IMG/VR virus record: IMGVR_UViG_3300043419_001406
Coordinates: 1 to 51,894 of that record
Length of the DNA stretch: 51,894 nucleotides
Strand: one strand, 5' to 3'
Source of the DNA: a virus
The position numbers and the translations under genes were made by a program. A model generated the notes under the pieces. It did no database searches and had not been told where the DNA came from. It worked only from the letters and a program-made list of their open reading frames with translations. Below are positions 8,432 through 44,575 of this stretch, one piece after another. Position 1 is the stretch's first letter. Every line of letters begins with the position of its first letter.

Positions 8432-8650
8432 ATGCTAAACCTACCCGCCAACACCCCTCCCCTGCTCCGTCTGGCCGAAGCTTCGGTCGTATTCAACCTG
8501 AGCAAGTCGACCCTGCTACGCCTAAGGCGGAGCGGATCCGTGAGAACATACAAGACCAACGGAGGTCAGTATATGTTCTACCGGGACGACATCATAGATT
8601 TCATAACCAAGAACACCAATGGCCTCGATAAAGTACAAGAATCACCCTAA
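8432..8650 (+). CDS. Small excisionase/MerR-like HTH protein (72 aa)
   Basis: The sequence LLRLAEASVVFNLSKSTLLR, then a wing (TYKTNGGQYMFYRDDIIDFI), is the winged helix of the excisionase/MerR group. Such small HTH proteins bind DNA, and near a terminase one could serve as packaging-site recognition or as a regulator. It starts four bases after the terminase stop and overlaps the portal start by 32 bases. It could be an alternative small terminase partner. No integrase is present, so a role in excision is unlikely. Confidence 0.65.
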   Translation: MLNLPANTPPLLRLAEASVVFNLSKSTLLRLRRSGSVRTYKTNGGQYMFYRDDIIDFITKNTNGLDKVQESP

Positions 8651-19403: not shown

Positions 19404-19404
19404 C

Positions 19405-22766: not shown

Positions 22767-22772
22767 CAGCTC

Positions 22773-23708
22773 ATGGAAGACGAAGATATCTCATCCCTGA
22801 TAAGCCAAATGGCGTCTCAGGGCCCGACTCAGTACGGAGCCACTTCGTCTGCCGTGCCCGGCAGGCAGCCTCGGCCGGCGCCGGTAAGTTTTGACGTCGC
22901 TAGGCAGATGTACGACGACGACTCGATGGCTCTGGCCGCTGTTTACGACACCAGCGGACGTGCCTCCGCGGCGCAACAGGCATATCTGGATCAGCAAAGG
23001 AAGATGCAGGACCCGAACTTTCGGGCTCAGCAGTTCTACATGAGCACGGGCAACTTGGCCGGAGCGATCCAGATAGGTAAGTCAAAAGGTTCGGCCCTGT
23101 TCAAGATGGGGTCCGAGATCAACATGGGTAGGGCAGGAACCTTCATGATGGCTCCTCAAGGCGAAATGGAGGCCAAGACGCCCGACGGCAGGTCGATCAG
23201 AATACCGGCATACATGGTGGCCGCAAAGAACGGCATCAACGTCCTTCCGTTCACGGGTGGGGACGAAAACGCGGACGCTTACAAGAGCACGATCATGAAC
23301 GCCGAGAGGGCATTCAGCCTGCTCGATGAGCTAGAGGATCTGTATAATGACAGCGGATACATCGGAACGATGTCGCCCACCGCCCGCGCCGCAAAAGCCG
23401 TCCAAATCGAGTCAATGCTGACTCCGCTTGTCCTCCAGACGCTCTCCGGAACAAAGAGCCTAGCTAGCACATCCGAGAAAGAGCTTGAGCTCATTCAGGG
23501 CGGAGTGCCTAGGGCTGCCAGCTCCATGATGTGGAATCGAAGGTCCAACGAGATCCTGAAGTTGCGCAAACTGAGGACCGATATTCAGGGCGTAATTTAT
23601 CGCTCATCCAAGCTCAATGGTATTGAATTGATCCCGAAGAAGCGCCAATCTTCTGGCGCCGGTGGGGCGGCCCAGACCGTCTCCATTCCCGGAGTCATAC
23701 CTGAATAA
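22773..23708 (+). CDS. Putative internal virion protein (311 aa)
   Basis: Begins MEDEDISSLISQMASQGPTQ, then a glutamine-rich helical part, a strand-rich centre (about residues 115-150) and a helical C-terminal half (ERAFSLLDELEDLYNDSGYI). The stop shares a base with the ATG of the giant gene (TAATGG), so translation of the giant gene probably depends on this one. No family is recognised. The gene order and coupling suggest the two products are made in proportion and may assemble together. Confidence 0.6.
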   Translation: MEDEDISSLISQMASQGPTQYGATSSAVPGRQPRPAPVSFDVARQMYDDDSMALAAVYDTSGRASAAQQAYLDQQRKMQDPNFRAQQFYMSTGNLAGAIQIGKSKGSALFKMGSEINMGRAGTFMMAPQGEMEAKTPDGRSIRIPAYMVAAKNGINVLPFTGGDENADAYKSTIMNAERAFSLLDELEDLYNDSGYIGTMSPTARAAKAVQIESMLTPLVLQTLSGTKSLASTSEKELELIQGGVPRAASSMMWNRRSNEILKLRKLRTDIQGVIYRSSKLNGIELIPKKRQSSGAGGAAQTVSIPGVIPE

Positions 23709-26700
23709 TGGAACCTACCGAACCTACCCAACCGCAAACTCCAGAAGACAGGGACGCCCAGATAAAGCGAGACATCATCGCCGGGCTTCAGTCTGGAGGA
23801 ATGGACTTAAGGGCCGCGCCTGCTTTCAATTTTGAGGAAGAGGAGAAGCCCGACGTCGCGGCTCAGACCGATCCGTCGTTGCTCACCGGCAAGGACATCT
23901 ATGAGTACATGCAGATGAACCGAAAGGCCCGGTTCTCTCATGACGAGATGGGCAGGAAGTCGTTCAGGATGATGATGGAGTACATGGACACCAAGAAGTC
24001 CGACTTCATGGGGTCAGCCGAAAACGCCTTAAGCACGATGGTTGAGGAGCTTGGCGGTCTGGCCGATGCTCCGCTGAATCCCGTAAAGTTCGCCGCCAGC
24101 ACGGCTGAAGGAGCCGCGAAGGGCATACAAGACATGTACGGCATCTTCGCCCAATCTGAAGATCCGGGAAGCTGGGGCTTCAAGCTGAAGAGCTATTTCA
24201 TGCGTCTTGCCGGAAAGGACGACGGAGACGTCGACTCGCAGATACGTCAATTCCATGAGGCCCGCGATTTCAATAATCGCTCTTACGAGCACATGGAAGG
24301 CAAGGGGACGATCCTCGGTGATTACATGCCGGAAGGCTGGAGGAAGACCTACGAAGGCCTCGTCGATTCAAAGTTCGCCACGGCCATGTCCTATGCCGTG
24401 CTCGACATACCGGAATGGTTTTTCTCTGCCGGATCCTCCACGCCGTCCACCGCGCTCAAGCTAGCCGCAACCGGAGCCGCCAAGAGCAGGCAGGCAACTT
24501 GGGCGGCTAGGGCCGTCGAGCGCCTAGGCGGATATGGAACTAATCTATTAGGCAAGAACTTGGACTTGGCAGCCGGCAAGTCGCTCGAAGCCGCCGGAAC
24601 AATCATCAGGGCCCCTTTCAAGGCCATCTACGGATCGTCTGCCGCCGCCGCACAGCTTGCTGGCGACTATGCCGGCAACGCCGTCCGCAACGCCTCCACG
24701 GCAGCCGCCGTAGAGATGGGCGCCGAGATAGTCGGCAACGGCATCAGGCACCCGGCCATGGGCTTCATGCGAAGCATCGGCCTTGAAGCTCTTGGCGAGC
24801 TGGCCCAGACCGCCGGAGCCGACATCGTCGACCGCGCGCTCGGCAAGGCCATGGTCAAGCCGGACGCGATCGGAATGACGACCCTTGAGCGCCTTGCTTC
24901 CGGAACCGCCCGCGGAGCCGAGACCATGTCCCGCGAGGCTCAGATGCTCGCCGTCGGTCTCAACGCTTCCGTCGGCTGGTCTACCAGCATGTCCAGCTCC
25001 GCCCTCAAGGCCATGTTCAGGGACGGCCTCATTGGCGCTGGCATCGGATACTACAACTCGCGCGAAGAAGGCGCCGGTGCCGGCGTAGGCATGGGTGTCG
25101 CTTGGGGCGGCCTTTCTGGAACCGTCCGCCACATGGGCGCGTACACTCGCTTCCAGCATCAAGACCAGCTGCTCGTCGACAATTTCAAGGGCTACGGCAT
25201 CGAGGCGTTCCGCCGGGTCCTAGGCACCACGGGCTACGAAAGCGCGAAGAGGTTCACCGAGCACGTCGAGAGCTTCGGAGATCTCCGTACGTCCGCCATC
25301 GAAATGGCGCACCTTCAGACGCTCATAGCTCACGAGGGCAACCTCATGGGCGTCGGTAACGTCAATTTCTACTTCGGCGACGTCTCCAAGAACCCGTCAG
25401 AACTGATGCAGGTTCTTGTCGACATGAAGATGCCGGCCAGCGAGATCGTGAAGACGATCGAGGGGGTGAAGAATAACCCGGGCATGATGGCAGACTTCAA
25501 GGACGTCAACAACGCCAACAAGAAGGTCCTGATACTCAACAGCGAGCAGTACAGGCCGACCACGGGCAGGCATGAAGTAGCCCACCTGCTCCTCAGATCT
25601 GTCGCGGAAGCCAACGGGGACATGGAGCTCATCGGCGATGCCGCAGGGAATAAGTTCAAGATCTTCAGGCCTAACTACCTGCTGAATCTTCTTGGCGCAT
25701 CCAAGGACATGGGCGCCATGCCGGACAAGGCGTGGAACGCCATGATACAGTCGTACACCGCGCTCTACGCCATGGCAACAGAAGGCCTCGACGAGGCTGG
25801 CGCCAAGGCTAGGGGCATGCAGATGGCGAATGCCGTCGAGACATATCGCGAGGCCTACAACAATGGCCAACTCAAGCTTCAAGACCCGGACGTAGCTTAT
25901 TTCGTAGCTCAAATCTCTAGGGTGGCCGAGGAAGCCTTCGCTTACTATCAGGGCGGACTCAGCAACGTTCTCCCCGTCGACCAATACACAAAGGACCCTG
26001 CCGCTAGGAATATGCTGAGGGCTTGGGCCGAAAACAGGGCCGCCCGCAAGAACAGCCTGATCATGGCCGACCTTGAGCTGGCTGGCGTCGAGATCCGGTC
26101 TAGGCTCACCAATCCGGACGGCTCTCCCAAGCTTTTCAGCGATCAAAAGGACGCTCACGGCAATCCCATCCCTGTCTTCGACTCCTTCCTTTTCGACGAC
26201 GGCAAGATGCTCCGCACTCCGGGCATGGACTCGTGGATCGACATGGTCATGCGTCAGGCCTACTCCAAGGGCGAAGTGCTCACCTCTACGATGGATCCGT
26301 TCCGTCAGGAGGCTTTGGCAAAGTCTGCCGGCAAGACTCATCTGTTCAGCTCTGTAGCCGGTGGCGGCATGAGGCTTAAGTCTCCCAAGGAGCTGGACGA
26401 GATGTCCAGCGAGCAGGCCAAAAAGATATTGGGCGCCGCCGGATCGGTTCCGGAAGACGTCCGTCCCTTCGTGGAGGTGGACCAAGAGGGCGCCACCAAG
26501 ATAAAGCTGGAGTCCATCGGAGCCGAGGCGCTCGAAGCCATCAGGCAGTCAGGAGCGTTCACGAAGCAGGAGTGGGATGCCATCGCCGGCATGATCAACA
26601 TCGTCCAGCGCAACCGGCAGGGCTCGATGCACAACAATGTGCTGAACGCCACGCTTCTCGCCCACACGATGCAGGTTCGCAAGGGCGCCAGCGTCATCCG

Positions 26701-29700
26701 CCTTACCGGCAAGGATGTCCCCGTCACCTACAGGTCGTTCGTCCCTCTCAGCGTTGAGGTCTACGTCAAGACCCATGACGCCCAAGGCAACCCGCTCAGG
26801 AGCCCTAAGGGCGGAGTGCTCATCCACTCTCTGGACATCGCGGCCGAGAACCGCAGGCTCCAGCGCGTATTCAAGAGGGCCGACGTCCAGCAGCTCTTCG
26901 GCGGAGACTTTGATAAGTTCGTCAAGACCTTCAACGCATACGTCATTAATCAGTCAGGCCTCAACGGAGCTAGGGTTCCGACGGCAGACCTTCTAAGGCC
27001 TATCTACGGCCCAGATGCCGAACGAGTCCGAGACATCCTGTATGAGGCTTTTGGCGGAAGGAAGACCAAGGATTCGGCTTGGATCAATGAGCCGGGCAAC
27101 GGATACAGGGGCGGAGCAGACGACCCCAACAGGCCGTTCTTCACCATGCGGTTCGACACGATGGCTGACATCCAAGTTCAGCCCACCGCTTGGAACCCCT
27201 ATTCTCGCGTCCCGTTCTTCCCGTACATCCACAACGTGGCGTACGAAGGAATCACGAAGAACTTCCAGCTTTCTGGATTCGCCGCCAGCCCGCTCGCCAA
27301 CGGAGGCATGATGCTCCGCAACCGGCAGGGCTTCGAGATATACGAAAGCAAGAAGGGCTATACCCTTTTCGATCCGTTCGGCATCAAGGTCGGCGTGTTC
27401 AAGACAGCCGCCAAGGCCATGAAGAAGGCGGCCAAGGACGCCGGCGAGCTAGACGAAGCCGACACCATCCCGGGCAACTCCACCTTCCATACGCCAGAGG
27501 GACCGTCCGAGATGGAGCCCTCGGCTTACCTGTCCAGCACCATGATGCTTGGCGGAAGGTCCGGCCAGATTGCGGCAAAGCTTTCGGCAGGCCGTAGCGC
27601 CCGCGGCATGAGCCCTGTCGAATATGTCGCGGCCCTTGCTAGGACCAACCCGAAGGCCAGCTTTGATGCCAGCCCTGTAAGCTCTTCGTCTTCTCCGAAC
27701 GTATTTCACCCGACCAACAACGCCGGGGTCGGGCTAGTCAACCTTCCGCCTATCGTTGCCCCAGACGGCACCGTCATCATCGACAAGGCCGTTCCGAAAA
27801 AGTTCATCAGGATGGATGAGGCCTTCGGCTCCGCGGCCCTTAATCTGGATGGCATAGACATACCTGCCGAGCAGGCCATCCTCAGCGCCGACGGAACGAC
27901 GCCTACTGCCATGCCGGGCGGAGACATGATCAATATCGCCATGTCTTTCAGCCCTGCACATGTCAGGGGGCTGGTCTCGCTTCATGGCCTAGACTTCGCG
28001 AATGCCGCATTTTCAAACAGGGCTGCAACCAGCCTTGTCGTGGCTACCGCCGTAAGGAACGGATCAATACCCATCCCAAGCACCTCCGGCGCCGGCAACG
28101 CTAGCCACGCCATGGCGCTTGCGTCTCTGATGGGGCAGAGGGATGCAAGCGGAACGAGCATCCATGAGGGCTATGTGGATGATTTCGTCTCAAAGAAGCA
28201 GATAGATGTCTTGGGCGACATGGCCACAAAGGTTGCTGGCGGCAACGTGGGCGCATACGACCTAGATAAAATAGGAAATTATAAAGACCAGAAACCGAAT
28301 CCGGCATTCCTTAAGTCGGCATTGTCCATAAGGGCCACATTTGGTACGCTTGATTGGGCGAAGGGAATCGTAAAGTCCGTCCAATCCGGCAAGACCCCGA
28401 GCACGGCTCAAGTGGCAGCGGCCCGCGCCATTCTCTCGGCCGTCGAGGGCAAGGCGACCCAGACGGGATCGCCGGCTCGCATGCAGCTCACTAGGGTCGC
28501 AAACCTAGACTTCGCGAGGGCCTACACGGAAGCGAAGATGGTCTATGGCACCGAGCAGAATGCTCCTCTAGCTGGAGGCGCCGCCGGAGGACAATGGATA
28601 TTTAGCGCTCCGGATAATCCTGACCATGTGATCATGTTCAATGACGCCATGGTCGACCTGTCGGACGTGGACCCAAGTGTATCTTCGTATCAGGCTGCGC
28701 TTGTTGTAAGGGAAATAGAGGCCCATCACGCAAAGTTCATGCAGGCCGTCAAAGCCTCTGGCAGCAAGATTCCCGTCTTTGATGAAGGCTCTGTCAGGAC
28801 TTCTTGGATTTCCGGACTTAATGATCTCATCCCGGGCCTGTCAGATGCCTTCACGGACATAATCATAAACCCGAAACGATCCCCTAGGCCTTCCGCAAGG
28901 GTTCAGACGTTCTTGGACGCATGGCGCGACTCCGCCAATAGGACGGCATCTAACGGAGGCATATTCAAGAAGACCGTAATCGGAAAGTTCGGGACGAATG
29001 GGAAGCTGGAGCTAGCGAAGACCGGATCAAAGATCGGCTTTGCTTGGATGTCTCTGGACAATGTGAATGATCCTGACGTGGATAACGTGCTCACGCACAG
29101 GTCTATCTACGAGGGCATAGAGGACGCCATAAACAGGCATGCGGTAGGAGACCCGAATGCCATTGTAGACGCCGCGGTTCTGTACGGAGTGATAAGCTCC
29201 TTGACCTCTGATGGGAATCCGTTCTTCCACCTTATAAAGCCGACGTATGAAAGGACGCTAGCCGGTGGAGTAAAAGACACGTTCAACAGGACCACCTTCT
29301 CCTCGGTCAGGGACCAGAGATACGGCAAATACAACACCTCAGCAGGGTATCCTTCTAGGCCCTACAGCAAGCCGGCAACAAGCATCTATGACCTTCCCGC
29401 GTCGAGGGCTTATGTCACGAAGCGGTCTACAAAGGCTTTGAAGGCTGCCGACGCTTCGGCGCCAATGTATCTGGAGGCGTCCGTCAATTCGGCAGACCCT
29501 TCGAGATACAGGTCGGTAGCAAGGGACAACGCCATAATAGGGTCCTCCATATCTCCGATAGTCGTAAGGACCAAGGGGACCAACCCCGTTCTTCAGGGCG
29601 GAGCGGCGAGCATGGTGGTTCATTCTAAGTCGGCGTCCGTCATGTGGTACGCTGGAACGAAGAACCCCGGGCACATGACGATGATCCCCGAGTCCCTAGG

Positions 29701-32700
29701 GGCCGATAATCTCATAACCGGCGGGACTGTGATGGACCCTGCCGGACAGACCTCCAGCCCGGCGTTTCTTTCGATCGCCATGGAGTCCATGGACGCCGCA
29801 GGAAACTTCGACTTCTCCAAGAAGATAGCCCGCGTAGACAAGGATGTCGGCGAGTGGCTGGGCATGTATTCCAATCTCGGAAACAACTCCCGCAACTTCG
29901 TAGACCAGATCACGAAGAGCATCCGCGAAGGGCTGGATCAAGCCGCCGGAGATACGGACAAGGTAGGATTGGTGTACGCCAGCCTCACTAAGGCCCTGAT
30001 CGACGTCGGGGTTTCCCACGATCAGGCCATGTTCGCCGAAAGGATGATCATAGAGCGGATCAAGCTTCAGGATGCCGTCCGGTCCTCCGGCGTCGGCTCC
30101 GCCGAAGCGCTGAACTCTCTGGCATCCATATCTGACGCCATCTTGCAGAGCGAAGAAGCTCGCGCCGGTGGTCCTAGGATAGGAGGCCTTTCAAAGAATA
30201 AGATCGAGTCGTACACCGCGATGCTCAAGGAGTACCGGAAGACCGGAGAGTTTCAGCTCGGGTCCAAGGAGGTAGCCAAGGGCAAGACCATCGAAGGCGA
30301 CAATCTGCTGATGCTCTCCGGAAGGAAAGCAGAGGCCTATCTGTCCAAGGAGCGCAAGGAAATGCTCATCGCCATGGGGCTGATGGGCAAGCTCAAGGAC
30401 TCCGCCGGCAACATCCATACCTACTTCGAGATATCGGACGCCCGCGCAAAGCTGAACACCGCTACCTTCGCCAACGGCCTAGCGGGAGTCCTGACCGAAG
30501 GACTTCCCGACGCCGAAGCCGCCATCGAAGGCGCGCTCCTGTCCCGCATAGGCAGGGCAAATACTGTCGACCTTCAGTCGCTCATAGACAATTTCAACTC
30601 GCGCAACCTCAAGCTCAAGGACCTGCTGATTCATGACGAGCTGTACGCTCTCTACCCTCAGCTTCCCGAGATGAAGGTCACCTGCACCCGTGGGCTGGGC
30701 GCCTCGTTCAATCCAGCCGGAGACAAAGGCTTCCAAATAGGCGTGGATAACCTGCTCAGGCAAGAATACGCGTCCCGACTCGATATCGACTCGTCGTCCG
30801 CTAGGGCTGGCGAAGGCATGGGCCATGAAGGTCATGGCGAGTTTCCTTCCTACGAGGAGCTCCTGAGGGACACCTTGCTGCATGAGGTCCAGCATGCCAT
30901 CCAAAATGCCGAAGATTGGAGGGATATAGCCTTCCAAGCCGACGCCGGAATCAGGTCAATGACGACGGATCCGACGGCTCCCGTGTTCTCGGACGCCCAG
31001 AATCCGTCCGGCTATCTGACCCCCTTCTATGTCGGAGCCGCCAAGGCTCTTGGGTCCGACGAGAACATAGGCATCATGGGCCCGTTCGAAGACGACGGAA
31101 CCCTTAGCTCAGACGTCGTCAGGATCCTCAAGAAGCACTTCGCCGATCATGACAAGCTTGCCAACGTGGTCATCCGCAACACCGGAGCCGCAGGCATCCG
31201 CGAAAGCATCGGCTACGCCGGCACGGATGACGTCGTAAGGGCGATCAAGGCCATAATCGAATCGCCTTTGGCCAAGACGCTCGTCGCCGACGAGATACCC
31301 TCCGTCGTCAGGATAGCCGAGAGGTACGCCACGGCCATAGACCTGTTCGAGTTCGCCCTGTCCAACAGGGCTTCTGAGTTCGATGATACGGCCCGGGCCA
31401 ACATGGCCGCCAAGCTTAGGGCCAACAGGGTCGCCGTCATGAACATGCGGGCCGCCGCCATGGCCTCCCTTGAGCGCGTCAAGGAAGGTTCAGATCCTCT
31501 GGTCGAGGCTTCCGCCTTGGCCGGAGTGGTCCGCGACCTCCAGCCCAGCATGATCATAAAGGACCCGTCGCTGTCCATCCTCGCGAAGGACGTCGTCGGC
31601 AACATGGACTACCTGACGTACGTCCAAGAGGTCGCCGTGAGGCCGCTCACTAGGTCCCTTAGCAAGCTGGCCCTCGCCGCCCATAACGGCCCCTCGTCCC
31701 TCTCTCCGCTTCAGGCCAACCTCAGGATCGCCGAGGTGGTCCATGGACTCATGGGGGCCCTGTACATGCAGGACCCGATGGAGATATCCGCCCGCGAGAC
31801 CGAGGCTAGGTCCAAGATGAGCCTTGAGCAGCTCGCCAAGCTTCCTCGTAAGACGACCGAAGACATCGTCAAGATGCCTGAAGCCCTTCGCATCGGCTTG
31901 TTCGCTAGGTCTGTCGCCATGTCCGACATGGGCATGGAGATGAGTCCCGGCATGTTCGACGAGTTCAAGAATGACAACTTGCTCATGATCGGTGGTTCCA
32001 AGGGCAGCCAGAAGCTCTCCTCGGAAGTGCTCACCAGCCAATCCGCCGTCTACGAGCTGGGCCTCAGGTACATGGCTAGGGCGTCCTTGCTCAGCCACCT
32101 GATAAAGCCCGACGACATCATCAAGCGAGCCAACGAGCTGGCATACAAGAGCCGCGGCTGGAAGATAACCCCGGAGGGCAAGGCGGTCTACGTCGTGTCC
32201 GAGGGCTTGCTTTCCATCAGCAGGGAAGGCGTGTCCGGAAGGGATGTGGTCTTCAACCTGATGAACACCTTGGATACTACCGCGGGACAGCCGCGTAGGG
32301 ACAGGGCTATCAGGAACGATACCGATCAGCGCATACAAAGGATCGAGGCCGGCAAGAACAAGGATGCTAGGAGCAGGGCCATGTCTGGCATCGTTGGCCC
32401 CAACCCGGAAAACCTCAGCCTTCAGGATATCGAGAAGATGGGCTCGGCGTTCGGCAGGGTCGCCGACGCAGAATACTACAGGGACAATGATTCGAGCGGA
32501 GACGCCGGAGTGCTGTTCGCGGCCGGCCTTTCCAAGGACGGAACGTCCGTCACCATTGAAGACATAGCGGACGCCATCGGCGCCGCCATCAAGGTTGAGT
32601 CCGAGATGACCATGGGAAGCCCGGCCCTTGACGCCGTGATGTCCAGCAACTTCCCCGACTTCTTCCTCGGCGAGAACTTGGTCCAGATGCTACGCACCGC

Positions 32701-35700: not shown

Positions 35701-38700
35701 TTCCGGCGAAGTGATGACTGCCGATAGGGGCGGTATCGCGATGGCCTTGATGACGCACCCCGAGATGGAGTCATATCTGTCCGTCGTAAGGTCTCAGGGC
35801 GTTCCCGTAACCACGTCGTTCAAGCCGGCAAGGCATCCTAGGCTTACCAAGGACATAGTCAGGACCCACATCAGGAAGTCCATCGCCGCTAGGCTCAGGG
35901 ACTCGGGCACCGACGTGATCGAAATCCAGCCGGCAAGCATGTCCCTCTCATACAGGGCTCCGAGCGCCGCGATGCTGATAGGCATGCGCGGAATGGATAC
36001 CATCAAGGAGGCGGTCAAGGATTGGAACGGCTCCGGCATCAGGTCGATAGACCGAAGCATACAGTACAAGACAGGCACCCAGAAAGGAAACTACATAGCG
36101 GCTGGCGAAAAAGGCCTGTCGTTGGTGGAGGGCATGTATGGAGACATCGGAGCCATGGCCGAATCAAGGCCGTCCAGAGGCTTCTCTTGGACCCGCGCCG
36201 CGAACGGAGACATATTGGTGAACATATCCGGAGACCACCTCGGCTATAAGCTGGATGCACGAGGCCAAGGAAAGAAGATGGGCTTCGGATTCTCCCTGAC
36301 AGAAGGCGTCGGCTTCGATGGCACTAGGGGAATATTCATACCCGCCAAGGGCGGAGTACAGTCCGCGATACGCCACATCATGGGCACCTACGGGCACTTC
36401 ATGGGAGACGCCTACGACACGGGGTCTTCATCCATGAAGGCGGCTTACATCAGGGCCGATGAGAGGATGGGCGGAAGGATCCACAGGTCTAGGATAGATG
36501 GAGCCGGAAAGGACATCGCCATAGCTGCCAAGGAAGTGGTGAGCCCGTCGGTCGGACCCAAGACAGACCTGACGAGGGCGGCCAGCAGGCTGGCCTTGGG
36601 TCAGTCGGCCGGATATGTGACCATCAGGATACCTGCCAACTCCAACATGGAGACGATAAGGCAGATGCTTCTGACGGCTCACATGGATCCTACCATCACC
36701 CCCAACTACGGGCTGGCGGCGAATACGGGACGATTGGATAACATCACGCTGCACGAAATGTCCGTAGGTAACGGCGGCATAATGAGCCCCATTCAGGATC
36801 AGTCGGGCTCATACAGCAGGAGCATCAAGCACAAGATAAGGACCGAGGGTAATAGCATCTTGGACTCCGATCAAGACGCCAAGTCGCTGATAGACAGCCT
36901 GACAAGGATCAAGTCCCAGATCGATCCGCACGTCGTCGAAGACATCGAGCTTCTCGTGGCCAAGATAGTCGGAAAAGAAAGCGGCTACTTCCTGCCGGAT
37001 GCCGAAAGGAAGCTGGCGCTGGACGGCGATACCGGAATGGCGATAGCCTCCCTGTTCCCCGGCCGCGAAGACCTGCTGAAGTACTCTTGGGACGCCAAGG
37101 CTCGGCATGGCATCAAGGTCTGGAAGCGCACCGGCCCCAAGGGTGACGCCAACTTCAGGGCGCATGTCGTTCAGTTCGACACGCCCGTTTCCATCAGCCC
37201 GGAAGGCGGACTACAGATATCCAAGACGGCCTTCGCCTTCAAGACGGCGGCCGAAGCCGAGCAGTATGCCAATCAGGTGTCCCGCATGATGAGCGGCGCC
37301 GAAATGGTAAAAGCCCTCGCCGACGGAGACATTGAAGTCGTCGACAGGCCTGACCTCGCCAAAGCCAATGATGACTTCATAGGCGACGTCGAGCCCCGGA
37401 AGCTTTCCATGCTCGGAGAGGAAGGCATCGTGCAGTCCGAAAACGGCTATACCGTCGGAGACCTCGACTCGGTGTTCGACAAGAAGACCGCCTCTCAGAT
37501 GTCGAAGGTGCTCGGCTCTAGGAAGCACGTCAGGTTCAAGTCCAGCAACTTGCTCATGATAGGCTCTAGGAGCATGGACGAGCTGGAGTCCTTGGTTAAG
37601 AGCAAGCTGAACTTCGGCCTTCCCAAGGGCCCGATCAGGTTCGCCTCCAAGGCCATGAACGCAATCTCTAGGGGCTTGGATAACCACAAGCGTCACAGGG
37701 ATGTCATGAGCGGAGCGGATTGGTTCGCTTTCATGAAGACGAACGGCGTCTCCGGCGAAGAAATCCGTCAGTCCGGCCTAGGCCAGCTGTTCTCCACCTC
37801 GCTTGAAACGCCCTTGTCTAGGATGGATGTCGCCGAGTTCTTGGCGGCCATGATGCCCAATCTGGTCAAGAATGACTTCAAGTTCAGCCCCTACCAGAGG
37901 GCGATCGAGGCCATGACGATGGACATTCCTTCGTCCCCCCAGAATCCGGCCCCTGCCTTCTTGCAGTCCTCCGGATGGCATGTGCCTTACATCCAGAACG
38001 CCGCGATCCAGACGGTCGCCAACATGAAGATGAGCATAGACGCCGTCCGTGGACCGGTTTCAGAGCTCAGCAACAGGCTCAAGGCGGCGGTCGACGCCAA
38101 CAATGAACCGGCCGTCGCGAAACTTAAAGCCGCCATCAACGTCATAAGCGACGCCCTGATATCGGCCGCCGGCCGACTTGGAATCCCTGAGGACAGGGTG
38201 GTCGACATGATGCGCGGAGGACTTGGCATGGCCGACGTCGTCGAAGCCATGAACGAGCAGCTCAAGCAAAGGCTTCGTGAGGCCACCAGCGAGACCTCGA
38301 CTTCCAGCGACATAGCAAAATTGGCCAACGACCTTGACTTCACGGGAGTCGAGTCCGTCAGGCAGAAGTACAACGACGAGGTGGCCAAGATGATGAAGGA
38401 CGCCGCCCTGCTGGAGGCCCTGTCTGGCGTCGCCCCTGAGATATACGCCCCCTTGAGGCTCATGAAGCATGGCTGGATCGGCGCTACAAATCCGTCCTTG
38501 GGAGCCCTTTCCACCACAATCGGCGGAAGCGGAGAAATACCTAAGAACATGTGGTTCGGCTCCGGATACACGGAGCTGATGGGCCAGACGCTCGGAACCC
38601 GAAAGGAAGGATGGGCCACTTACTCGACCGGCAAGCAGGAAACCGGAACGAACACCGCCGTCCAATACTACAGCCCCGCCATTCGGGATCAGATAAGTCA

Positions 38701-41700
38701 GTACATCGCGGACCTCGGAGAGCAGGCTCTTGCCGCCGAACAGGCCGGCGACCTTCAAAAAGCCGACGCTGCTAGGAAGTTGCGAGATGCGGCGAAGCGA
38801 GTCGCAACCGTGAGGGAAGCCCTGTCGGGGGCCCCTTATGGCTCCGCTGGAAGCCACTTCGGCAACTACCTTCCGTCTGGAGATGTCACTCCTGCCGGTG
38901 GTGAGTATGAGATCGGTCACTACAGGTACTCGCTCAACCTAGCCCTGTCCGGACTTTCCGTGCCGCTGTTCGACAAGCCGGAAGCCCTGCTGATAGGCGC
39001 GAAGGAAGCCGGCCTGCCCATGGAGGTCAGGCTCGATAAGCTCGGATACCCCGTGATGATGCTCGAAGAGTTCCAATCCGACCTGTTCCAGAGGTACGGC
39101 GGAACCGGCGTCGTCGAGGAGGCTGATGCGTTCCTTCCTGCCAGCGCAGAAGAGGCCGTCAGGATGCAGTCGGTCCCGGCAATCAAGGAGAAGAAGGAAA
39201 GGATGGCCAGCCTCACGGCCATCAGGGACAACATGGCCAAGCACCTGCTTGAATCCCTGATGGATGTCACGGACGACAAGTCCTTCACCGACCTCACGAT
39301 AAGGCTTCAGCTCAACAACCTAGATTTGATGAACAAGATGTTCATCACGGCGAGCTGCCCGGGCCTGTTCCGCGGAACGGGAAGGTATGTCAAGACCCCC
39401 GAAACGCTGATAGCTTCGATCAAGAAGCAGGCCGGCTTCACCCTGCCCGAGCGCATGCTCGTGGTCGAGCCGGACGTCGAGCTCATCAAGATAGGCATGG
39501 GCGGAGAGCTTTCCGAAGCCTCATGGCAGAAGGTTTCCGACAGGATGATCCGGAACATGAGGTCCGCCGAGGACGTCCATGTCCTGTTCCGCGAGGGCGG
39601 CATGAACATGGATCAGATCGTTCAGGCCGTAATGAGGCACCCGCGCAGGAGCCTTGAACAGTCGATGAGGTCCATATCCCAGCTGATGGCCAAGGCCAAC
39701 ACGGACATGCTCTCTGAGAATTACCTCCTGAAAATCCTGCCCAACGTCGAAAACGCCCCCAATGGAGACCTTAAGCAGCTCTTGTTGGGCCTCGCCGAAA
39801 GGATACAACAGCGTGGAACCTCAGGAGGAGCAGAAGGGTCGGCGAACCTTCTCGCCGCCCAGCTGGCCGCCATGGTGCTTCTGGACGAGAAGTACGTCTT
39901 GGACATATCGAAGGCGGTGCAGGACGGATCCAAGATCGACTATGAAGCCGTCGCTAGGAGGACCCTTGAGACCATCAGGGCCAAGTTCGCCGACAGCCGT
40001 TCGTTCAACGGAAAGACCGTCCTGACGGCCTTTGAGGTCATGCTCATGCAGGCTTCTGAGCCCAAGCCGTTCCTCGGCGCGGAAAATAACTTCTCCGCTG
40101 GCACGGGAATAGGCCACGCCGAGCTCGGAAGCCTTATCGCTGCGGCTGAAATACCGGAAGCGGATCTGGCCGACGTCGAGAACATCTCCATCAACCAGCT
40201 CAACGAGTACCTCGGCCTCACGATGCGTCAGAGGGAAAGGATGGTCGGAGAGATAGCCGAATCGATATCCATGGGCGGAGACCTTTCCAAGAAGGCCATC
40301 TACATAAGCAGGGGCCCGAGCGTCGACGACGTCGGACCGCAGAGGTCTTACGTCACCATACGCACCACGAACTTGGAGCCCATGCAGCTCGCGAACAGGG
40401 TCGTGCTTGAGATGCTCAAGGCCAAGAAGGAAGGCCGTGCGATAAGGTCGATAGTCGTCGCGGACTACAACCGGTACTCCGGAACTCAGGCCGGCGCGTT
40501 CGTCCGATCCATATCGGAGCTGTTCGTCGCCATGGCCAAGAAGGAGTCCCTTACTCCTGAGATCGATAAGCTCGGATCCGAGATAGCGGAGCTGTCCAAG
40601 GGCGTACCCGAGATAGGGTCGCTCAAGGGCGCGCAGAAGCACGGGTCGAGCGCCGTCCTCCCGAACAGCCTCCCTCTGGTGGACATCAACGGATACAAGT
40701 CGGCCCACCTGTCCATGGCTGTCATCGATTCGATGAACCACGGGATGAGGGGCGTAGGCCTTTACGACGCCTCGTTCCAGCTGGAGCGCGGTCACGGACT
40801 CGATAATGATCCGACCACCTACATAGGCTTCGGTAAGAACAACAGGTATGTGTTCGCCCTAGATGACAAGCTGGCGTTCAAGCCGATCCAAGCGCTCCTC
40901 TACACCTATGAGAAGCTCTTGGGCGAATACAACGGTCAGGACGGGCCTCATGGAGGCTTCCTCTATAGGCTGGCCAACTTGGACGAAGAAGACGTGATCC
41001 GCCTCAAGTCCGGCAGCACGATAGATCATAACGGCGTCACGGGCACCCTCGGCAAGCACATGGCCATCTTCATGAAGGACATGAGCGAAAGGATCCCGGA
41101 CGGAATGGTGGAAACCATCAAGACGTCCTATGACACCAACGTGTCCTTCGAGATGGGAGGAAGGCTTCTCAGCAGGTTCGAGCAAAGCATCGACAAGAGC
41201 CTCAAGCGCAACCTGACGTCATCCCTTTCGGGCCCGGCGTTCGTAGGAGGCAAGAAGGTCGAGAACGTGCTCTGGGAGGGCGGAACCAAGTTCAACGCCA
41301 ACGCGATGAAGGATTCCGTGCTAACCCTGATGCCGGCCCAAGCGCACGGTAGCGCCGGCTGGGGCTATCTGACCAACTACGGACTTCCCGGATGGAAAGT
41401 TGACCTCATGATGACGGGCGCGTCCCGTGCATTCAGGGACAACTACAGCCTCGACGCCTTCGACAGGCCTAAGTTCGAGGTCAGGGGGAGCAACATGGTC
41501 CTTCTGGATCCGAAGACCGGAAGGGAGCTCGTCACGGTCGATGTCACCAGCGAGCAAGGCATGCGGATATTCCGCGAGAAGTACCTGCAAGCCAGCAAGT
41601 ATCGCGGAGGAAATTGGGCGATAAGGGCGTTCATGAAGGAGTGGGGAGCCGCCGGCGCCTACATAGACACGACCGTCCTTGCGGACCTTCCTAATTACCG

Positions 41701-43018
41701 AGGCGAAGTCTCCGGCTACAAGCTGGACGTCGATAGCGGAATGCCCAGCTACATATCCAACCTGTCCGCGCTGAGCAGGCAGAACGACGATCCTCGTGTT
41801 TCCGCGATCATAAGGGCCACCCAAGAAGGCAAGCTCAGCCCTGAAGGCTTCAATAATCCTCCCGGATTCGGAGGCTTCAGGATTTCGCCCCAAGAAGGCG
41901 GCATGATAATCGGTCAGGCCGGAGGCTCCTATAATCCGGAAACCCCGATATCGTCGTCGGGCAACTACATAAACGCCGAAAGCGAGCCGGGCGCCGGATC
42001 ATTCAGGGGCCAGCAGCTTTCCGCCGAAAGGTCCGAAGCTCAGCCCACGGCGTCGTCGCTCACCCAAAATGGGGCGGTTCATCCGGCCGTATACGCCGCC
42101 GTGCTCGGCGGAGGAGTTGCCACCCCCGAGGCCGTGGCCAGCATGATAATCAAGATGAGGAACACCACCGTCACCACGATGGTCCATACCCCCGAGATGC
42201 GGACCAAGGAGCACGAGCTCGCGTTCAGGACGAAGGTGTCGTCTGGCATACACCTGCTGATGGCTTCCGGCCGGAAGGCTGAGCCCGGCAAGCCTGTCGA
42301 CCCGAACATCATCTCCGCCTTGGCCCAGCTTGCTGAAAAAGTCGAGGCCATGGGCCAGCTGAGCAACAGGCGCAGGTCTGAAAGCGTCGAAGACACCCGA
42401 TACAGGGACCTGAGGGATAACACCCCCATCACCTACGCGGACAACCTGATGGTCGACAGGTCGCAGCTGCCTAAGCTCCCTATGGCCGAGAAGCCCGCTG
42501 AGATCGATCCCAACGACAAGCGCTTCAGGATCTACGACAGGGACAAGGCCGTTGGGCTGCTCAAGGCCGGCCACTCGGATCTTGAGGTCGCGAAGCACAT
42601 GGGCGTCTCTAGGACCTTGATCGTACTCCTAAGGGCCAAAGAAGGCATAGCTCCCCTGCCGGAAGGCAGTCCGAGCAAGAGAGACCGCCGGGCGGTTCAT
42701 AAGCTTGGCGAAGAAGAAATCGTCAAGCGGATGGATGCCGTCGTCGAAGGCCTGAAGTCCAATCAGGGCACGGCGACCGAGCTCATCAGGAAGACCAACC
42801 TGACTGATTCCAAGCGCCAGCATGGCGGGTGGAAGAAGGTAAGGGATTATGTCGAGAGCAAGGGCGTTCCTAAGCCCAAGCGTCGCAGCCCAAAGAAGGT
42901 CGATCCTTCGCCTTCTGACAGCCTCAGCGACCCGACCCATGAAGCTCAGGTCAAGAAGCCTTCCAACCAATCAGATCTCATGAAACGCGAACAACTAGAA
43001 GGGGACATGAATGGATAA
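23708..43018 (+). CDS. Giant polyvalent protein (6,436 aa), probably packaged in the virion
   Basis: One uninterrupted frame of 19.3 kb, about 40% of the unit genome. The likely role, by analogy with phage large polyvalent proteins and ejected core proteins, is delivery into the cell with the DNA to disarm or take over the host. Visible parts: acidic N-terminus (1-60); Gly/Ala-rich membrane-active-looking region (about 230-470); HEVAH (622-626) with a possible third ligand E741/E742; a small beta module (about 1208-1243); a second HEVQH (2392-2396) after an YPQLPEMKV block typical of polyvalent-protein metallopeptidases; an EEFQSD site (5120-5125) with matching C-terminal blocks at about 5662-5700; a further beta module (about 5923); a helix-turn-helix (about 6283-6312); and a basic tail. 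A short LLM-type motif recurs at 878, 1277, 2199, 2757, 4614 and 6182. AGG and ATA codons are frequent. No RNA polymerase motif was seen. Confidence 0.85.
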   Translation: MEPTEPTQPQTPEDRDAQIKRDIIAGLQSGGMDLRAAPAFNFEEEEKPDVAAQTDPSLLTGKDIYEYMQMNRKARFSHDEMGRKSFRMMMEYMDTKKSDFMGSAENALSTMVEELGGLADAPLNPVKFAASTAEGAAKGIQDMYGIFAQSEDPGSWGFKLKSYFMRLAGKDDGDVDSQIRQFHEARDFNNRSYEHMEGKGTILGDYMPEGWRKTYEGLVDSKFATAMSYAVLDIPEWFFSAGSSTPSTALKLAATGAAKSRQATWAARAVERLGGYGTNLLGKNLDLAAGKSLEAAGTIIRAPFKAIYGSSAAAAQLAGDYAGNAVRNASTAAAVEMGAEIVGNGIRHPAMGFMRSIGLEALGELAQTAGADIVDRALGKAMVKPDAIGMTTLERLASGTARGAETMSREAQMLAVGLNASVGWSTSMSSSALKAMFRDGLIGAGIGYYNSREEGAGAGVGMGVAWGGLSGTVRHMGAYTRFQHQDQLLVDNFKGYGIEAFRRVLGTTGYESAKRFTEHVESFGDLRTSAIEMAHLQTLIAHEGNLMGVGNVNFYFGDVSKNPSELMQVLVDMKMPASEIVKTIEGVKNNPGMMADFKDVNNANKKVLILNSEQYRPTTGRHEVAHLLLRSVAEANGDMELIGDAAGNKFKIFRPNYLLNLLGASKDMGAMPDKAWNAMIQSYTALYAMATEGLDEAGAKARGMQMANAVETYREAYNNGQLKLQDPDVAYFVAQISRVAEEAFAYYQGGLSNVLPVDQYTKDPAARNMLRAWAENRAARKNSLIMADLELAGVEIRSRLTNPDGSPKLFSDQKDAHGNPIPVFDSFLFDDGKMLRTPGMDSWIDMVMRQAYSKGEVLTSTMDPFRQEALAKSAGKTHLFSSVAGGGMRLKSPKELDEMSSEQAKKILGAAGSVPEDVRPFVEVDQEGATKIKLESIGAEALEAIRQSGAFTKQEWDAIAGMINIVQRNRQGSMHNNVLNATLLAHTMQVRKGASVIRLTGKDVPVTYRSFVPLSVEVYVKTHDAQGNPLRSPKGGVLIHSLDIAAENRRLQRVFKRADVQQLFGGDFDKFVKTFNAYVINQSGLNGARVPTADLLRPIYGPDAERVRDILYEAFGGRKTKDSAWINEPGNGYRGGADDPNRPFFTMRFDTMADIQVQPTAWNPYSRVPFFPYIHNVAYEGITKNFQLSGFAASPLANGGMMLRNRQGFEIYESKKGYTLFDPFGIKVGVFKTAAKAMKKAAKDAGELDEADTIPGNSTFHTPEGPSEMEPSAYLSSTMMLGGRSGQIAAKLSAGRSARGMSPVEYVAALARTNPKASFDASPVSSSSSPNVFHPTNNAGVGLVNLPPIVAPDGTVIIDKAVPKKFIRMDEAFGSAALNLDGIDIPAEQAILSADGTTPTAMPGGDMINIAMSFSPAHVRGLVSLHGLDFANAAFSNRAATSLVVATAVRNGSIPIPSTSGAGNASHAMALASLMGQRDASGTSIHEGYVDDFVSKKQIDVLGDMATKVAGGNVGAYDLDKIGNYKDQKPNPAFLKSALSIRATFGTLDWAKGIVKSVQSGKTPSTAQVAAARAILSAVEGKATQTGSPARMQLTRVANLDFARAYTEAKMVYGTEQNAPLAGGAAGGQWIFSAPDNPDHVIMFNDAMVDLSDVDPSVSSYQAALVVREIEAHHAKFMQAVKASGSKIPVFDEGSVRTSWISGLNDLIPGLSDAFTDIIINPKRSPRPSARVQTFLDAWRDSANRTASNGGIFKKTVIGKFGTNGKLELAKTGSKIGFAWMSLDNVNDPDVDNVLTHRSIYEGIEDAINRHAVGDPNAIVDAAVLYGVISSLTSDGNPFFHLIKPTYERTLAGGVKDTFNRTTFSSVRDQRYGKYNTSAGYPSRPYSKPATSIYDLPASRAYVTKRSTKALKAADASAPMYLEASVNSADPSRYRSVARDNAIIGSSISPIVVRTKGTNPVLQGGAASMVVHSKSASVMWYAGTKNPGHMTMIPESLGADNLITGGTVMDPAGQTSSPAFLSIAMESMDAAGNFDFSKKIARVDKDVGEWLGMYSNLGNNSRNFVDQITKSIREGLDQAAGDTDKVGLVYASLTKALIDVGVSHDQAMFAERMIIERIKLQDAVRSSGVGSAEALNSLASISDAILQSEEARAGGPRIGGLSKNKIESYTAMLKEYRKTGEFQLGSKEVAKGKTIEGDNLLMLSGRKAEAYLSKERKEMLIAMGLMGKLKDSAGNIHTYFEISDARAKLNTATFANGLAGVLTEGLPDAEAAIEGALLSRIGRANTVDLQSLIDNFNSRNLKLKDLLIHDELYALYPQLPEMKVTCTRGLGASFNPAGDKGFQIGVDNLLRQEYASRLDIDSSSARAGEGMGHEGHGEFPSYEELLRDTLLHEVQHAIQNAEDWRDIAFQADAGIRSMTTDPTAPVFSDAQNPSGYLTPFYVGAAKALGSDENIGIMGPFEDDGTLSSDVVRILKKHFADHDKLANVVIRNTGAAGIRESIGYAGTDDVVRAIKAIIESPLAKTLVADEIPSVVRIAERYATAIDLFEFALSNRASEFDDTARANMAAKLRANRVAVMNMRAAAMASLERVKEGSDPLVEASALAGVVRDLQPSMIIKDPSLSILAKDVVGNMDYLTYVQEVAVRPLTRSLSKLALAAHNGPSSLSPLQANLRIAEVVHGLMGALYMQDPMEISARETEARSKMSLEQLAKLPRKTTEDIVKMPEALRIGLFARSVAMSDMGMEMSPGMFDEFKNDNLLMIGGSKGSQKLSSEVLTSQSAVYELGLRYMARASLLSHLIKPDDIIKRANELAYKSRGWKITPEGKAVYVVSEGLLSISREGVSGRDVVFNLMNTLDTTAGQPRRDRAIRNDTDQRIQRIEAGKNKDARSRAMSGIVGPNPENLSLQDIEKMGSAFGRVADAEYYRDNDSSGDAGVLFAAGLSKDGTSVTIEDIADAIGAAIKVESEMTMGSPALDAVMSSNFPDFFLGENLVQMLRTAGVDEQSILSSRADEISKSFANKRVSKSEVADLMAIMHDVPFADYANDVTNREQVLMSVGKLDEELPEKIRAAYFEDGDMGKFIRSTVHTILNSRTTSGDEPLKYMFDSDTALSGGSGIMRLHNVVTTVITQHWNMIEGLYNLTGNRSVAEKLLKRLTDRYPTARDVSPSFHSNRVVFQKSVTMAGGGIDRDTAANMMRKAFTNRLSKLLMALTPLAERVAELSRADETTATLKLLEHIYGKVIDETLQHVERMRMSADDSGGVISGYSALVGRHIGMGGGSYSITDKSRATFQKLAERTLGGTRVSRMSGTLPLVGLYGGATHLMRLSSRVDNVFMSTAGVALQGQGGFVSDSGRSSNLISNQTAGETELRLMLESRPDVTRILEESADLADEADLTAARLIVSKMGDMVTAGSEDMVENHAPMIVSVMRAHRRLRQMAKGVMAAIDTQGNYLGVGSQLRPSKMISYYGNVFLSDQTAALINKTIADDQVGMELTLHHLQDQREKATALLELMRSIEDQPGILQNFGTIMTESFGDTYHTAADVNNARRLTNLSTLRTYVPKDGEKRLVITSAHESLMSAAEEKDITILSGMDTTSMNSPAFASGRYAANDYTVSANLFGDMPGEPIGTALERTSSVLAKALDTSQMRDIQFADQVARTMRSFKGQTSMSYKQNSIGRSMIHVAGGGFGLYGAADQLSKSNDAKLRALGEALRSFDHEVGVDYETDLASSLLAGLMVPLLKRLSDRESLYDAKADIAFLVDAFSKDKANWSGNLDDFVLSCQNAMSRSNGIGIRRLGQYMSVRFSSADWQGMARAAGAVMFDRHISLGLATKFTADEIKAIRREYMKTLASNKADTPEYESYHRQRSQAGELPYTREVLLEEGQGLSKGTKISESKSALYAMNNLIEQVLGTSDHGSGSALFFAVLGGLTDHEGVKHSPAAIKTDDGWKVAPSGFSQNADSSARDIAYGSVTADEVFVEGPSGFSEASGASIYEKGSLFSSGEVMTADRGGIAMALMTHPEMESYLSVVRSQGVPVTTSFKPARHPRLTKDIVRTHIRKSIAARLRDSGTDVIEIQPASMSLSYRAPSAAMLIGMRGMDTIKEAVKDWNGSGIRSIDRSIQYKTGTQKGNYIAAGEKGLSLVEGMYGDIGAMAESRPSRGFSWTRAANGDILVNISGDHLGYKLDARGQGKKMGFGFSLTEGVGFDGTRGIFIPAKGGVQSAIRHIMGTYGHFMGDAYDTGSSSMKAAYIRADERMGGRIHRSRIDGAGKDIAIAAKEVVSPSVGPKTDLTRAASRLALGQSAGYVTIRIPANSNMETIRQMLLTAHMDPTITPNYGLAANTGRLDNITLHEMSVGNGGIMSPIQDQSGSYSRSIKHKIRTEGNSILDSDQDAKSLIDSLTRIKSQIDPHVVEDIELLVAKIVGKESGYFLPDAERKLALDGDTGMAIASLFPGREDLLKYSWDAKARHGIKVWKRTGPKGDANFRAHVVQFDTPVSISPEGGLQISKTAFAFKTAAEAEQYANQVSRMMSGAEMVKALADGDIEVVDRPDLAKANDDFIGDVEPRKLSMLGEEGIVQSENGYTVGDLDSVFDKKTASQMSKVLGSRKHVRFKSSNLLMIGSRSMDELESLVKSKLNFGLPKGPIRFASKAMNAISRGLDNHKRHRDVMSGADWFAFMKTNGVSGEEIRQSGLGQLFSTSLETPLSRMDVAEFLAAMMPNLVKNDFKFSPYQRAIEAMTMDIPSSPQNPAPAFLQSSGWHVPYIQNAAIQTVANMKMSIDAVRGPVSELSNRLKAAVDANNEPAVAKLKAAINVISDALISAAGRLGIPEDRVVDMMRGGLGMADVVEAMNEQLKQRLREATSETSTSSDIAKLANDLDFTGVESVRQKYNDEVAKMMKDAALLEALSGVAPEIYAPLRLMKHGWIGATNPSLGALSTTIGGSGEIPKNMWFGSGYTELMGQTLGTRKEGWATYSTGKQETGTNTAVQYYSPAIRDQISQYIADLGEQALAAEQAGDLQKADAARKLRDAAKRVATVREALSGAPYGSAGSHFGNYLPSGDVTPAGGEYEIGHYRYSLNLALSGLSVPLFDKPEALLIGAKEAGLPMEVRLDKLGYPVMMLEEFQSDLFQRYGGTGVVEEADAFLPASAEEAVRMQSVPAIKEKKERMASLTAIRDNMAKHLLESLMDVTDDKSFTDLTIRLQLNNLDLMNKMFITASCPGLFRGTGRYVKTPETLIASIKKQAGFTLPERMLVVEPDVELIKIGMGGELSEASWQKVSDRMIRNMRSAEDVHVLFREGGMNMDQIVQAVMRHPRRSLEQSMRSISQLMAKANTDMLSENYLLKILPNVENAPNGDLKQLLLGLAERIQQRGTSGGAEGSANLLAAQLAAMVLLDEKYVLDISKAVQDGSKIDYEAVARRTLETIRAKFADSRSFNGKTVLTAFEVMLMQASEPKPFLGAENNFSAGTGIGHAELGSLIAAAEIPEADLADVENISINQLNEYLGLTMRQRERMVGEIAESISMGGDLSKKAIYISRGPSVDDVGPQRSYVTIRTTNLEPMQLANRVVLEMLKAKKEGRAIRSIVVADYNRYSGTQAGAFVRSISELFVAMAKKESLTPEIDKLGSEIAELSKGVPEIGSLKGAQKHGSSAVLPNSLPLVDINGYKSAHLSMAVIDSMNHGMRGVGLYDASFQLERGHGLDNDPTTYIGFGKNNRYVFALDDKLAFKPIQALLYTYEKLLGEYNGQDGPHGGFLYRLANLDEEDVIRLKSGSTIDHNGVTGTLGKHMAIFMKDMSERIPDGMVETIKTSYDTNVSFEMGGRLLSRFEQSIDKSLKRNLTSSLSGPAFVGGKKVENVLWEGGTKFNANAMKDSVLTLMPAQAHGSAGWGYLTNYGLPGWKVDLMMTGASRAFRDNYSLDAFDRPKFEVRGSNMVLLDPKTGRELVTVDVTSEQGMRIFREKYLQASKYRGGNWAIRAFMKEWGAAGAYIDTTVLADLPNYRGEVSGYKLDVDSGMPSYISNLSALSRQNDDPRVSAIIRATQEGKLSPEGFNNPPGFGGFRISPQEGGMIIGQAGGSYNPETPISSSGNYINAESEPGAGSFRGQQLSAERSEAQPTASSLTQNGAVHPAVYAAVLGGGVATPEAVASMIIKMRNTTVTTMVHTPEMRTKEHELAFRTKVSSGIHLLMASGRKAEPGKPVDPNIISALAQLAEKVEAMGQLSNRRRSESVEDTRYRDLRDNTPITYADNLMVDRSQLPKLPMAEKPAEIDPNDKRFRIYDRDKAVGLLKAGHSDLEVAKHMGVSRTLIVLLRAKEGIAPLPEGSPSKRDRRAVHKLGEEEIVKRMDAVVEGLKSNQGTATELIRKTNLTDSKRQHGGWKKVRDYVESKGVPKPKRRSPKKVDPSPSDSLSDPTHEAQVKKPSNQSDLMKREQLEGDMNG

Positions 43019-43355
43019 CCCAGCAGACAAGGCAGATGCCGTGTTCGTAAAAGACGCGGTAATCTCAGGCATATTAGGGGGAGCCGCCATGGGTGCCCGA
43101 ATACTCCTCAGCCCCGAGCCGCTATCGCTGGCTTGGATAATCCGCCGGGCGGCGGCCGCCATGATAACGGCGGCCATCGTCGGGCTCGTCGCACAGGACT
43201 ACATACAGAGCAAGGGAGCCCTGTACGCATCGATCGGAGCGGCCGGAGCAGTAGCCCCGGAGCTCATGGAATACCTCATACGCTACGTCCGCGCTCGCGG
43301 CGAAAAGGAACTCCAACATGCGACACGAACCAAACAAAAGAAACGACGAAAGTAA
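43011..43355 (+). CDS. Holin candidate (114 aa)
   Basis: Small membrane protein with two or three hydrophobic segments (AVISGILGGAAMGARILLS; AAAAMITAAIVGLVAQDYIQ; LYASIGAAGAVAPELMEYLI) and a highly basic C-terminus (RTKQKKRRK). This is the layout of phage holins that permeabilise the inner membrane at lysis. It overlaps the end of the giant gene by eight bases and the start of the next membrane-protein gene by 38, so lysis timing would be tied to late expression. Confidence 0.65.
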   Translation: MDNPADKADAVFVKDAVISGILGGAAMGARILLSPEPLSLAWIIRRAAAAMITAAIVGLVAQDYIQSKGALYASIGAAGAVAPELMEYLIRYVRARGEKELQHATRTKQKKRRK

Positions 43356-44492: not shown

Positions 44493-44494
44493 CG

Positions 44495-44575
44495 TGCCCA
44501 AGGAGGGACTTGAACCCTCATGTCTTTCGACGCCCGTGCTTAAGACGGGTGCGTATGCCATTCCGCCACTTGGGC
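44495..44575 (-). tRNA. tRNA-Leu(TAA)
   Basis: Class II cloverleaf: acceptor GCCCAAG/CTTGGGC, D-arm GCGGAATGGCATACGC, anticodon loop CTTAAGC (anticodon TAA) on a CCCGT/ACGGG stem, a short variable arm GTC-GAAA-GAC, and T-loop TTCAAGT on GAGGG/CCCTC. CCA is not encoded (the next bases are CGA). It is the last gene of the early unit and would read TTA and TTG. Confidence 0.9.

Follow-up and report, generated by a model that had tools for sequence, protein, structure and literature searches.

A 6,436-residue, nearly cysteine-free protein at the end of a podovirus virion operon: a probable giant ejection protein with two metallopeptidase signatures

Why does a podovirus-like phage give 40% of its genome to one gene, and what could such a product do? 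The window analysed here is the whole 51,894-nucleotide stretch of IMG/VR record IMGVR_UViG_3300043419_001406. The gene in question, here called the giant, stands among the following genes.

6787..8427, + strand, terminase large subunit (TerL; PHROG 2; used as bait for the clade)
8619..10871, + strand, portal protein (tblastn to annotated portal proteins)
12187..13530, + strand, major capsid protein (MCP) of podovirus type (PHROG 1328, E 7.5e-39; matches to PaP3/LUZ24-like phages and Vibrio podoviruses)
18477..19403, + strand, 308-aa Cys-free virion-operon protein
19405..20298, + strand, 297-aa Cys-free virion-operon protein
20305..21267, + strand, 320-aa Cys-free virion-operon protein, fast-evolving
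21276..22766, + strand, 496-aa Cys-free protein in the Cys-free block upstream of the giant
22773..23708, + strand, 311-aa Cys-free protein translationally coupled to the giant (homologue in 18 of 18 records tested)
23708..43018, + strand, giant open reading frame (ATG start, 6,436 aa, 696 kDa, 3 Cys)
43011..43355, + strand, holin-like protein (PHROG 6384, E 8e-4)

The ends of the record form an imperfect direct repeat (positions 1-3646 versus 48267-51894, 94.4% identical, 184 mismatches and 10 gap openings), and hence the genome unit is about 48,248 bases rather than the 51,894 recorded in IMG/VR. The genome is circular or terminally redundant and was probably assembled through two strain variants, which would account for its listing as linear in IMG/VR. 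On the ~48.25-kb unit the giant gene takes 19,311 of 48,248 bases, or 40.0%, in agreement with an earlier sequence-only reading of one 6,436-residue gene filling about 40% of a ~48-kb genome. That reading had also described an uninterrupted 19.3-kb frame joined to an upstream virion gene by TAATG, and both are confirmed: the 6,436 codons contain no internal stop, and the TAA of the upstream gene overlaps the start of the giant, as it does in most other giants. At its 3′ end the giant is overlapped by the holin-like gene, and its product has a computed pI of 6.3. The description of the genome as podovirus-like was likewise borne out by the relationship of the MCP to PaP3/LUZ24-like and Vibrio podovirus proteins, with no tail-tube or tape-measure gene detected.

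A scan with the C-terminal three quarters of the giant found two independent IMG/VR contigs with intact homologues of 6,453 and 6,459 aa in the equivalent place. These two closest relatives are 96% identical to this phage in TerL, 87-92% in MCP and 59-61% in the giant. Codon comparison with them gave dN of 0.35 and 0.31 against dS of ~1.5-1.6, pN was well under pS in every 200-codon segment, and indels in the three-way alignment were few and short, none exceeding 10 residues. Viral scans seeded from the giant alignment returned only these two relatives, with poor peptide patterns; TerL was the productive bait and brought 130 related contigs. Among 28 longer TerL-related records, the N-terminal giant profile was present in 24 and the C-terminal profile in 23, and 19 further contigs gave full or contig-truncated homologues in one open frame of 5,266-6,380 aa. 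These 19, the two closest contigs and this giant make up the set of 22 giants used below (5,266-6,459 aa, a few of them cut short where the contig stops). Because each of the 22 records keeps a single open frame, the giant is a hallmark of the clade. The independent intact homologues and the purifying selection answer the doubt, raised earlier, whether the frame might be misassembled.

Giant pieces or the C-terminal region of a relative had no match in an isolate-phage collection (DNA and protein), a plasmid search gave none, and TerL, used for host inference, had none in bacterial genome contigs. We found no paper describing this clade in the open-access literature. One contig of the wider clade, IMGVR_UViG_3300010970_000150 (88,287 bases; L221 and L254), contains two different TerL genes tens of kb apart, and is either two joined phage genomes or a chimera.

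Comparison with sister phages, whose TerL is ~61-69% identical to that of this phage or of each other's clade, divides the giant into two unequal parts. Frames of 2.5-4.4 kaa fill the equivalent slot in these phages, and their N-termini are homologous to the following region.

23873..27487, + strand, conserved N-terminal module (aa ~56-1260; hhalign to sister-phage N-termini)

This homology has probabilities of 98.6-100 and E values of 5e-16 to 7e-64 (hhalign), and the module is 84-85% identical in the closest relatives. For aa 1260-6436, ~5,200 residues, no homology to the sister profiles was detected. The sister proteins (for example in IMGVR_UViG_3300032286_000345 and IMGVR_UViG_3300020161_000877) are thus like the giant in the N-terminal ~1,200 residues, in operon position and in paucity of cysteine (0-4 each), but are shorter and lack the EExQSD and HExQH modules described below. 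In phage C75C1, the nearest named phage (TerL 34%), the equivalent stretch holds three Cys-free proteins of 2,769, 375 and 1,343 aa, none of which is detectably homologous to the giant. From these comparisons, one N-terminal module carries very different C-terminal freight, and this clade carries the most. The mass of ~690 kDa given by the sequence-only reading (computed, 696) stands. Such a size is no one-off, since the giant is a clade hallmark at the top of a graded size series running through 2.5-4.4 kaa in sister lineages.

Two minor observations belong to this comparison. A small domain that closes the N-terminal module of the giant (aa 1200-1255, GYEI...G..LF.PFG..VGVFK) is found again at the very C-terminal end of shorter sister proteins; the match has probability 79 and E 1.5e-5 in one set and is weak elsewhere. 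The 2,769-aa protein of C75C1 (CDS 38751-7576 across the origin) contains irregular repeats of YxLPxFxV, seen by eye.

Cysteine is nearly excluded from the giant. Its 3 residues in 6,436 compare with 0.65% in other late genes (Fisher p 1.5e-9) and 0.70% in early genes (p 8e-8), and the 22 giants together have 70 in 129,134 residues. The neighbouring virion-operon genes share this property: the five directly upstream (18477-23708) encode no cysteine at all. The same holds for gp50, gp51 and gp52 of phage N4 (0 of 4,294 residues), whereas the N4 replication proteins that we checked contain cysteine. Such exclusion fits a chain that would cross the oxidising periplasm unfolded, and low cysteine could also reflect another constraint, for example one acting on any extracytoplasmic, virion-internal or exported protein. 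The phage has genes for tRNA-Met (CAT, 3037-3112), tRNA-Leu (TAA, 44494-44575), tRNA-Arg (CCT, 45037-45108) and tRNA-Cys (GCA, 46367-46441), and so carries a tRNA-Cys beside a largest protein nearly without cysteine.

Of all observations, a natural recombinant pair points most clearly to an N-terminal third that acts together with the delivery apparatus and to a remainder that is separable from it. The pair consists of two relatives, G027 and G028 (L165 and L166), found in separate metagenomes, with ~93% DNA identity from the portal region through a 251-aa gene, the equivalent of 18477-19403. Across the next four Cys-free genes and the initial third of the giant they diverge to 27-68% protein identity, and they regain ~95% identity just ahead of peptidase 2, from the site below to the end of the compared region.

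30305..30310, + strand, breakpoint-equivalent site (aa ~2,200, approximate; from the L165/L166 pair)

Because divergence is confined to this block, the four upstream genes and the N-terminal third of the giant were exchanged together. The comparison concerns one pair of metagenomic contigs, for which chimeric assembly of one is unlikely. Replacement of a single gene inside the putative ejection block is probable for the 496-aa gene: the two closest relatives (L002 and L003) have genes for 568 and 580 aa at this place, and neither is detectably similar to it.

Sequence searches of giant pieces against Pfam, PHROG and PDB gave no family match. Conserved residues, read from the alignment of the 22 giants, mark the following features.

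24929..25132, + strand, Gly-rich block GAGIG..GAGAGVGMGVAWGG.SG (aa 408-475; near-invariant in the 22 giants and among the most conserved parts)
25361..25957, + strand, metallopeptidase-like domain 1 (aa 552-750)
25571-25585, + strand, HEVAH of domain 1 (aa 622-626; Glu742 at 25931-25933)
30614..30937, + strand, metallopeptidase-like domain 2 (aa 2303-2410; invariant His2309)
30881-30895, + strand, HEVQH of domain 2 (aa 2392-2396; wider signature LLHExQHxIQ)
38825..39112, + strand, EExQSD module (aa 5040-5135; alignment of 22 giants)
40625..40852, + strand, second conserved block of the C-terminal region (aa 5640-5715; alignment)
42530..42643, + strand, helix-turn-helix (HTH; aa 6275-6312; C-terminal add-on in a subset of giants)

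Domain 1 has a zincin-type peptidase signature, and its peptidase activity is putative. H622, E623, H626 and E742 are invariant in the 22 giants, with an HExxxH form in one subclade. A model of aa 61-1255 (AlphaFold, pLDDT 64.7) places the HExxH in a helix that follows strands, and the Glu in a helix further along. The assignment rests on motif and conservation, because the fold search gave no significant match. One sister group keeps the HExxH of domain 1 (as HELFH) and another has lost it, hence activity of this domain is not universally needed. In domain 2, H2309, H2392, E2393, Q2395 and H2396 are invariant in the 22 giants, and its profile matches a 3,145-aa phage protein and gp3 of EBPR podovirus 3 (E 1.1e-18, probability 99.1). 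In both signatures, zinc-ligand and catalytic residues are unchanged down to 14-30% identity.

Invariant positions of the EExQSD module are H5050, G5070, H5071, R5073, E5120, E5121, Q5123, S5124, D5125 and Q5128; the motif is reminiscent of an EIQSD motif of other large phage proteins, to which it may be related, and the module has no confirmed relative outside the clade. The HTH is assigned from matches of some members to Pfam HTH_23/HTH_28 and PHROG HTH families, this giant being below threshold and placed by alignment only. The predicted structure of the giant is mixed alpha/beta. Neither the model of aa 61-1255 nor that of aa 4880-5995 (pLDDT 73.9) had a significant fold match in PDB, nor had the latter in BFVD. 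The N-terminal module is without a strong transmembrane segment, and we found no nuclease or RNA polymerase in this protein and its relatives (Pfam/PHROG), no lytic transglycosylase or lysozyme domain in giant pieces or the late genes tested (Pfam), and no LPD, ART, ArdC-N or BECR Pfam domain in the giant or its 21 relatives.

These features are best compared with the polyvalent proteins, some of which contain zincin metallopeptidases and for which injection was proposed by Iyer et al. 2017 (PMC5512222). Among their metallopeptidases are variants with HExxxH and one type that has a conserved His further upstream (PMC5512222). Like them, the giant is a very large multidomain protein of a terminase-portal phage, with zincin-type signatures and a DNA-binding domain. 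It joins at least two domains of disparate biochemistry, namely two of metallopeptidase type and the HTH; an HExxH with a later Glu is present as H622/E623/H626/E742, and H2392/E2393/H2396 are also conserved; and TerL, portal and MCP, as expected of portal-terminase packaging, are encoded in its operon. It differs in having no curated LPD/Pfam domain, in its 6.4 kaa in a 48-kb genome, and in its own ~1,200-residue N-terminal module followed by a putative payload of ~5,200 mostly unassigned residues. Membership survives the lack of an LPD domain, because such a domain is common but not obligatory. By predicted domain make-up the giant thus appears to belong to the polyvalent type, as an extreme variant rather than a new kind; for packaging and injection the signs are indirect, namely cysteine exclusion and joint exchange with virion-operon genes upstream. 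Of the peptidase, nuclease and DNA-binding modules named for such proteins in the sequence-only reading, the two peptidase signatures and, in a subset, the C-terminal HTH were recovered, but a nuclease was not.

For possible delivery, phage N4 offers the closest parallel. Its gp50, a virion RNA polymerase (vRNAP) of 3,500 aa and 383 kDa, is present in 4 ± 1 copies and ejected, and is thought to unfold and then refold; gp50, gp51 and gp52 are the ejection proteins (Schitoviridae, PMC12633501). The giant resembles gp50 as a giant podovirus protein with an HExxH domain that is next to other putative ejection proteins, and, as in the N4 set, cysteine is (almost) missing from giant (3 of 6,436) and five upstream products alike. 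By this analogy the giant would work like an N4-type giant ejection protein. It is larger (696 versus 383 kDa) and, with no polymerase detected in it, does not count as an N4-type vRNAP; homology with the latter was rejected, as the giant has no profile similarity to gp50. Phage phi-crAss001 stores ~5.5 MDa of cargo in its virion, for which partial unfolding during tail passage has been proposed (PMC10172136). It is likewise a case of large proteins in a podovirus-like virion, if the giant is packaged as we suggest, but its cargo is spread over several separate proteins, none above 277 kDa, the phage genome measures ~103 kb, and the large cargo proteins are RNA polymerase-associated (PMC10172136). 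The 3,145-aa protein of MW202426 (Caudoviricetes) and EBPR podovirus 3 gp3 have the peptidase-2 family in common with the giant (H..LFAAYP ... LLHEIQH); outside it no relation is detectable, and gp3 has only ~335 aa. Nor does the giant match an ejection protein of T7 gp16 or P22 type with a transglycosylase, since Pfam gave no lytic transglycosylase or lysozyme domain for its pieces or for the late genes tested.

Among the ejection proteins of a podovirus, we consider the giant likely to be the last and the largest one, packaged, threaded through the tail, and built of a delivery module and a payload. According to our model, it would be packaged in the capsid and enter the host by way of the tail in a mostly unfolded state, either together with the DNA or immediately ahead of it. 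The N-terminal third (at least aa ~56-1260, and up to ~2,200 as judged from recombination) may serve as a delivery or docking module that leads or anchors threading together with the Cys-free upstream ejection proteins, and the remaining two thirds may be payload that refolds in the host cytoplasm. There the metallopeptidase domains might trim or release parts of the payload, or cut host proteins, and the HTH-bearing C-terminus, where present, might bind DNA. By our own arithmetic four copies of the giant amount to 2.8 MDa, whereas the DNA of a 48-kb genome weighs more than ten times as much, and therefore the load would be large but not impossible. Points that weigh against the model are the lack of family and significant fold matches for the giant, the want of a strong transmembrane segment within its N-terminal module, the loss of the domain 1 HExxH in one sister clade, and the other constraints that could keep cysteine low. 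The earlier proposal of a giant ejected effector or core protein is thus supported in part, by peptidase signatures, HTH, position at the end of the virion operon and N4-like low cysteine, and we infer packaging, ejection and action in the host by analogy.

In a different and, in our judgement, unlikely scheme the peptidases would cut the giant in the producing cell into virion or ejection proteins of ordinary size, and no 696-kDa chain would be packaged. Two conserved peptidase domains (aa ~622 and ~2392) agree with such a polyprotein, as do the three separate Cys-free proteins in the equivalent stretch of C75C1 and the precedent of phage P1 DdrB, which is processed before packaging (PMC5512222). 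However, we detected no homology between the giant and the C75C1 proteins, and the HExxH-containing N4 vRNAP is packaged unprocessed (PMC5512222). Moreover, the sister clade without the HExxH of domain 1 keeps frames of 3.5-3.7 kaa, and cysteine exclusion extends over the whole length, thus all parts appear to share one fate.

The gene directly precedes the lysis genes and its polyvalent composition is effector-like, which would also suit a protein that is made late but is no part of the virion, such as an anti-competitor factor or a product set free by lysis. This is highly improbable, given that the N-terminal third was exchanged along with upstream virion-operon genes, that the giant is translationally coupled to one of them, and that it shares cysteine exclusion with them. 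A shade less credible still is a structural role in the tail of a long-tailed phage, as a tape measure or otherwise. Tape-measure genes are often the largest of a phage, and the giant is large, late in the operon, Cys-poor and rich in Gly/Ala stretches. However, its head genes are of podovirus type, the zincin and EExQSD signatures are of an enzymatic kind, the predicted structure is mixed alpha/beta, and length varies ~2.5-fold among sister phages with related head genes; among the virion genes no tail-tube, sheath, baseplate or tape-measure family gave a match, which is absence of evidence only. Misassembly or a chance run of unrelated open frames, suggested by the metagenomic origin of the contig and an end repeat 94% identical rather than identical, has practically no probability left, because colinear full-length frames occur in independent contigs and are under purifying selection throughout.

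If the giant is such an ejection protein, its clade of ~48-kb podoviruses may eject a ~700-kDa chain composed of an exchangeable delivery module and a self-processed payload of ~4,000-5,000 residues, kept nearly free of cysteine for unfolding, periplasm crossing and refolding; we advance this wider picture tentatively, as somewhat short of an even chance. Among proteins that viruses are known to deliver, the giant would then rank with the largest. It is about twice the size of the N4 vRNAP, the largest laboratory-studied ejected protein that we found, and would set a new scale for short-tailed phages, raising the question of how a phage stores so long a chain and how the chain is unfolded and refolded. 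Cysteine exclusion would become a general marker of phage-ejected proteins readable from sequence, and a cheap one in uncultured phages whose largest genes match no family. The ~5,200 conserved and mostly unassigned payload residues may hold new counter-host functions. In addition, the clade offers natural experiments in its graded sizes, in peptidase motifs that some lineages keep and others have lost, and in a recombinant where the delivery-linked part is divided from the payload.

Two further observations concern other virion genes. The protein encoded at 15655-16758 in the virion operon has a CBM_5_12 carbohydrate-binding domain above the Pfam cut-off. The MCP is ~100 residues longer than in sister phages (447 versus 342 aa) and reaches 467 aa in close relatives; its homology to other podovirus MCPs ends near residue 320.
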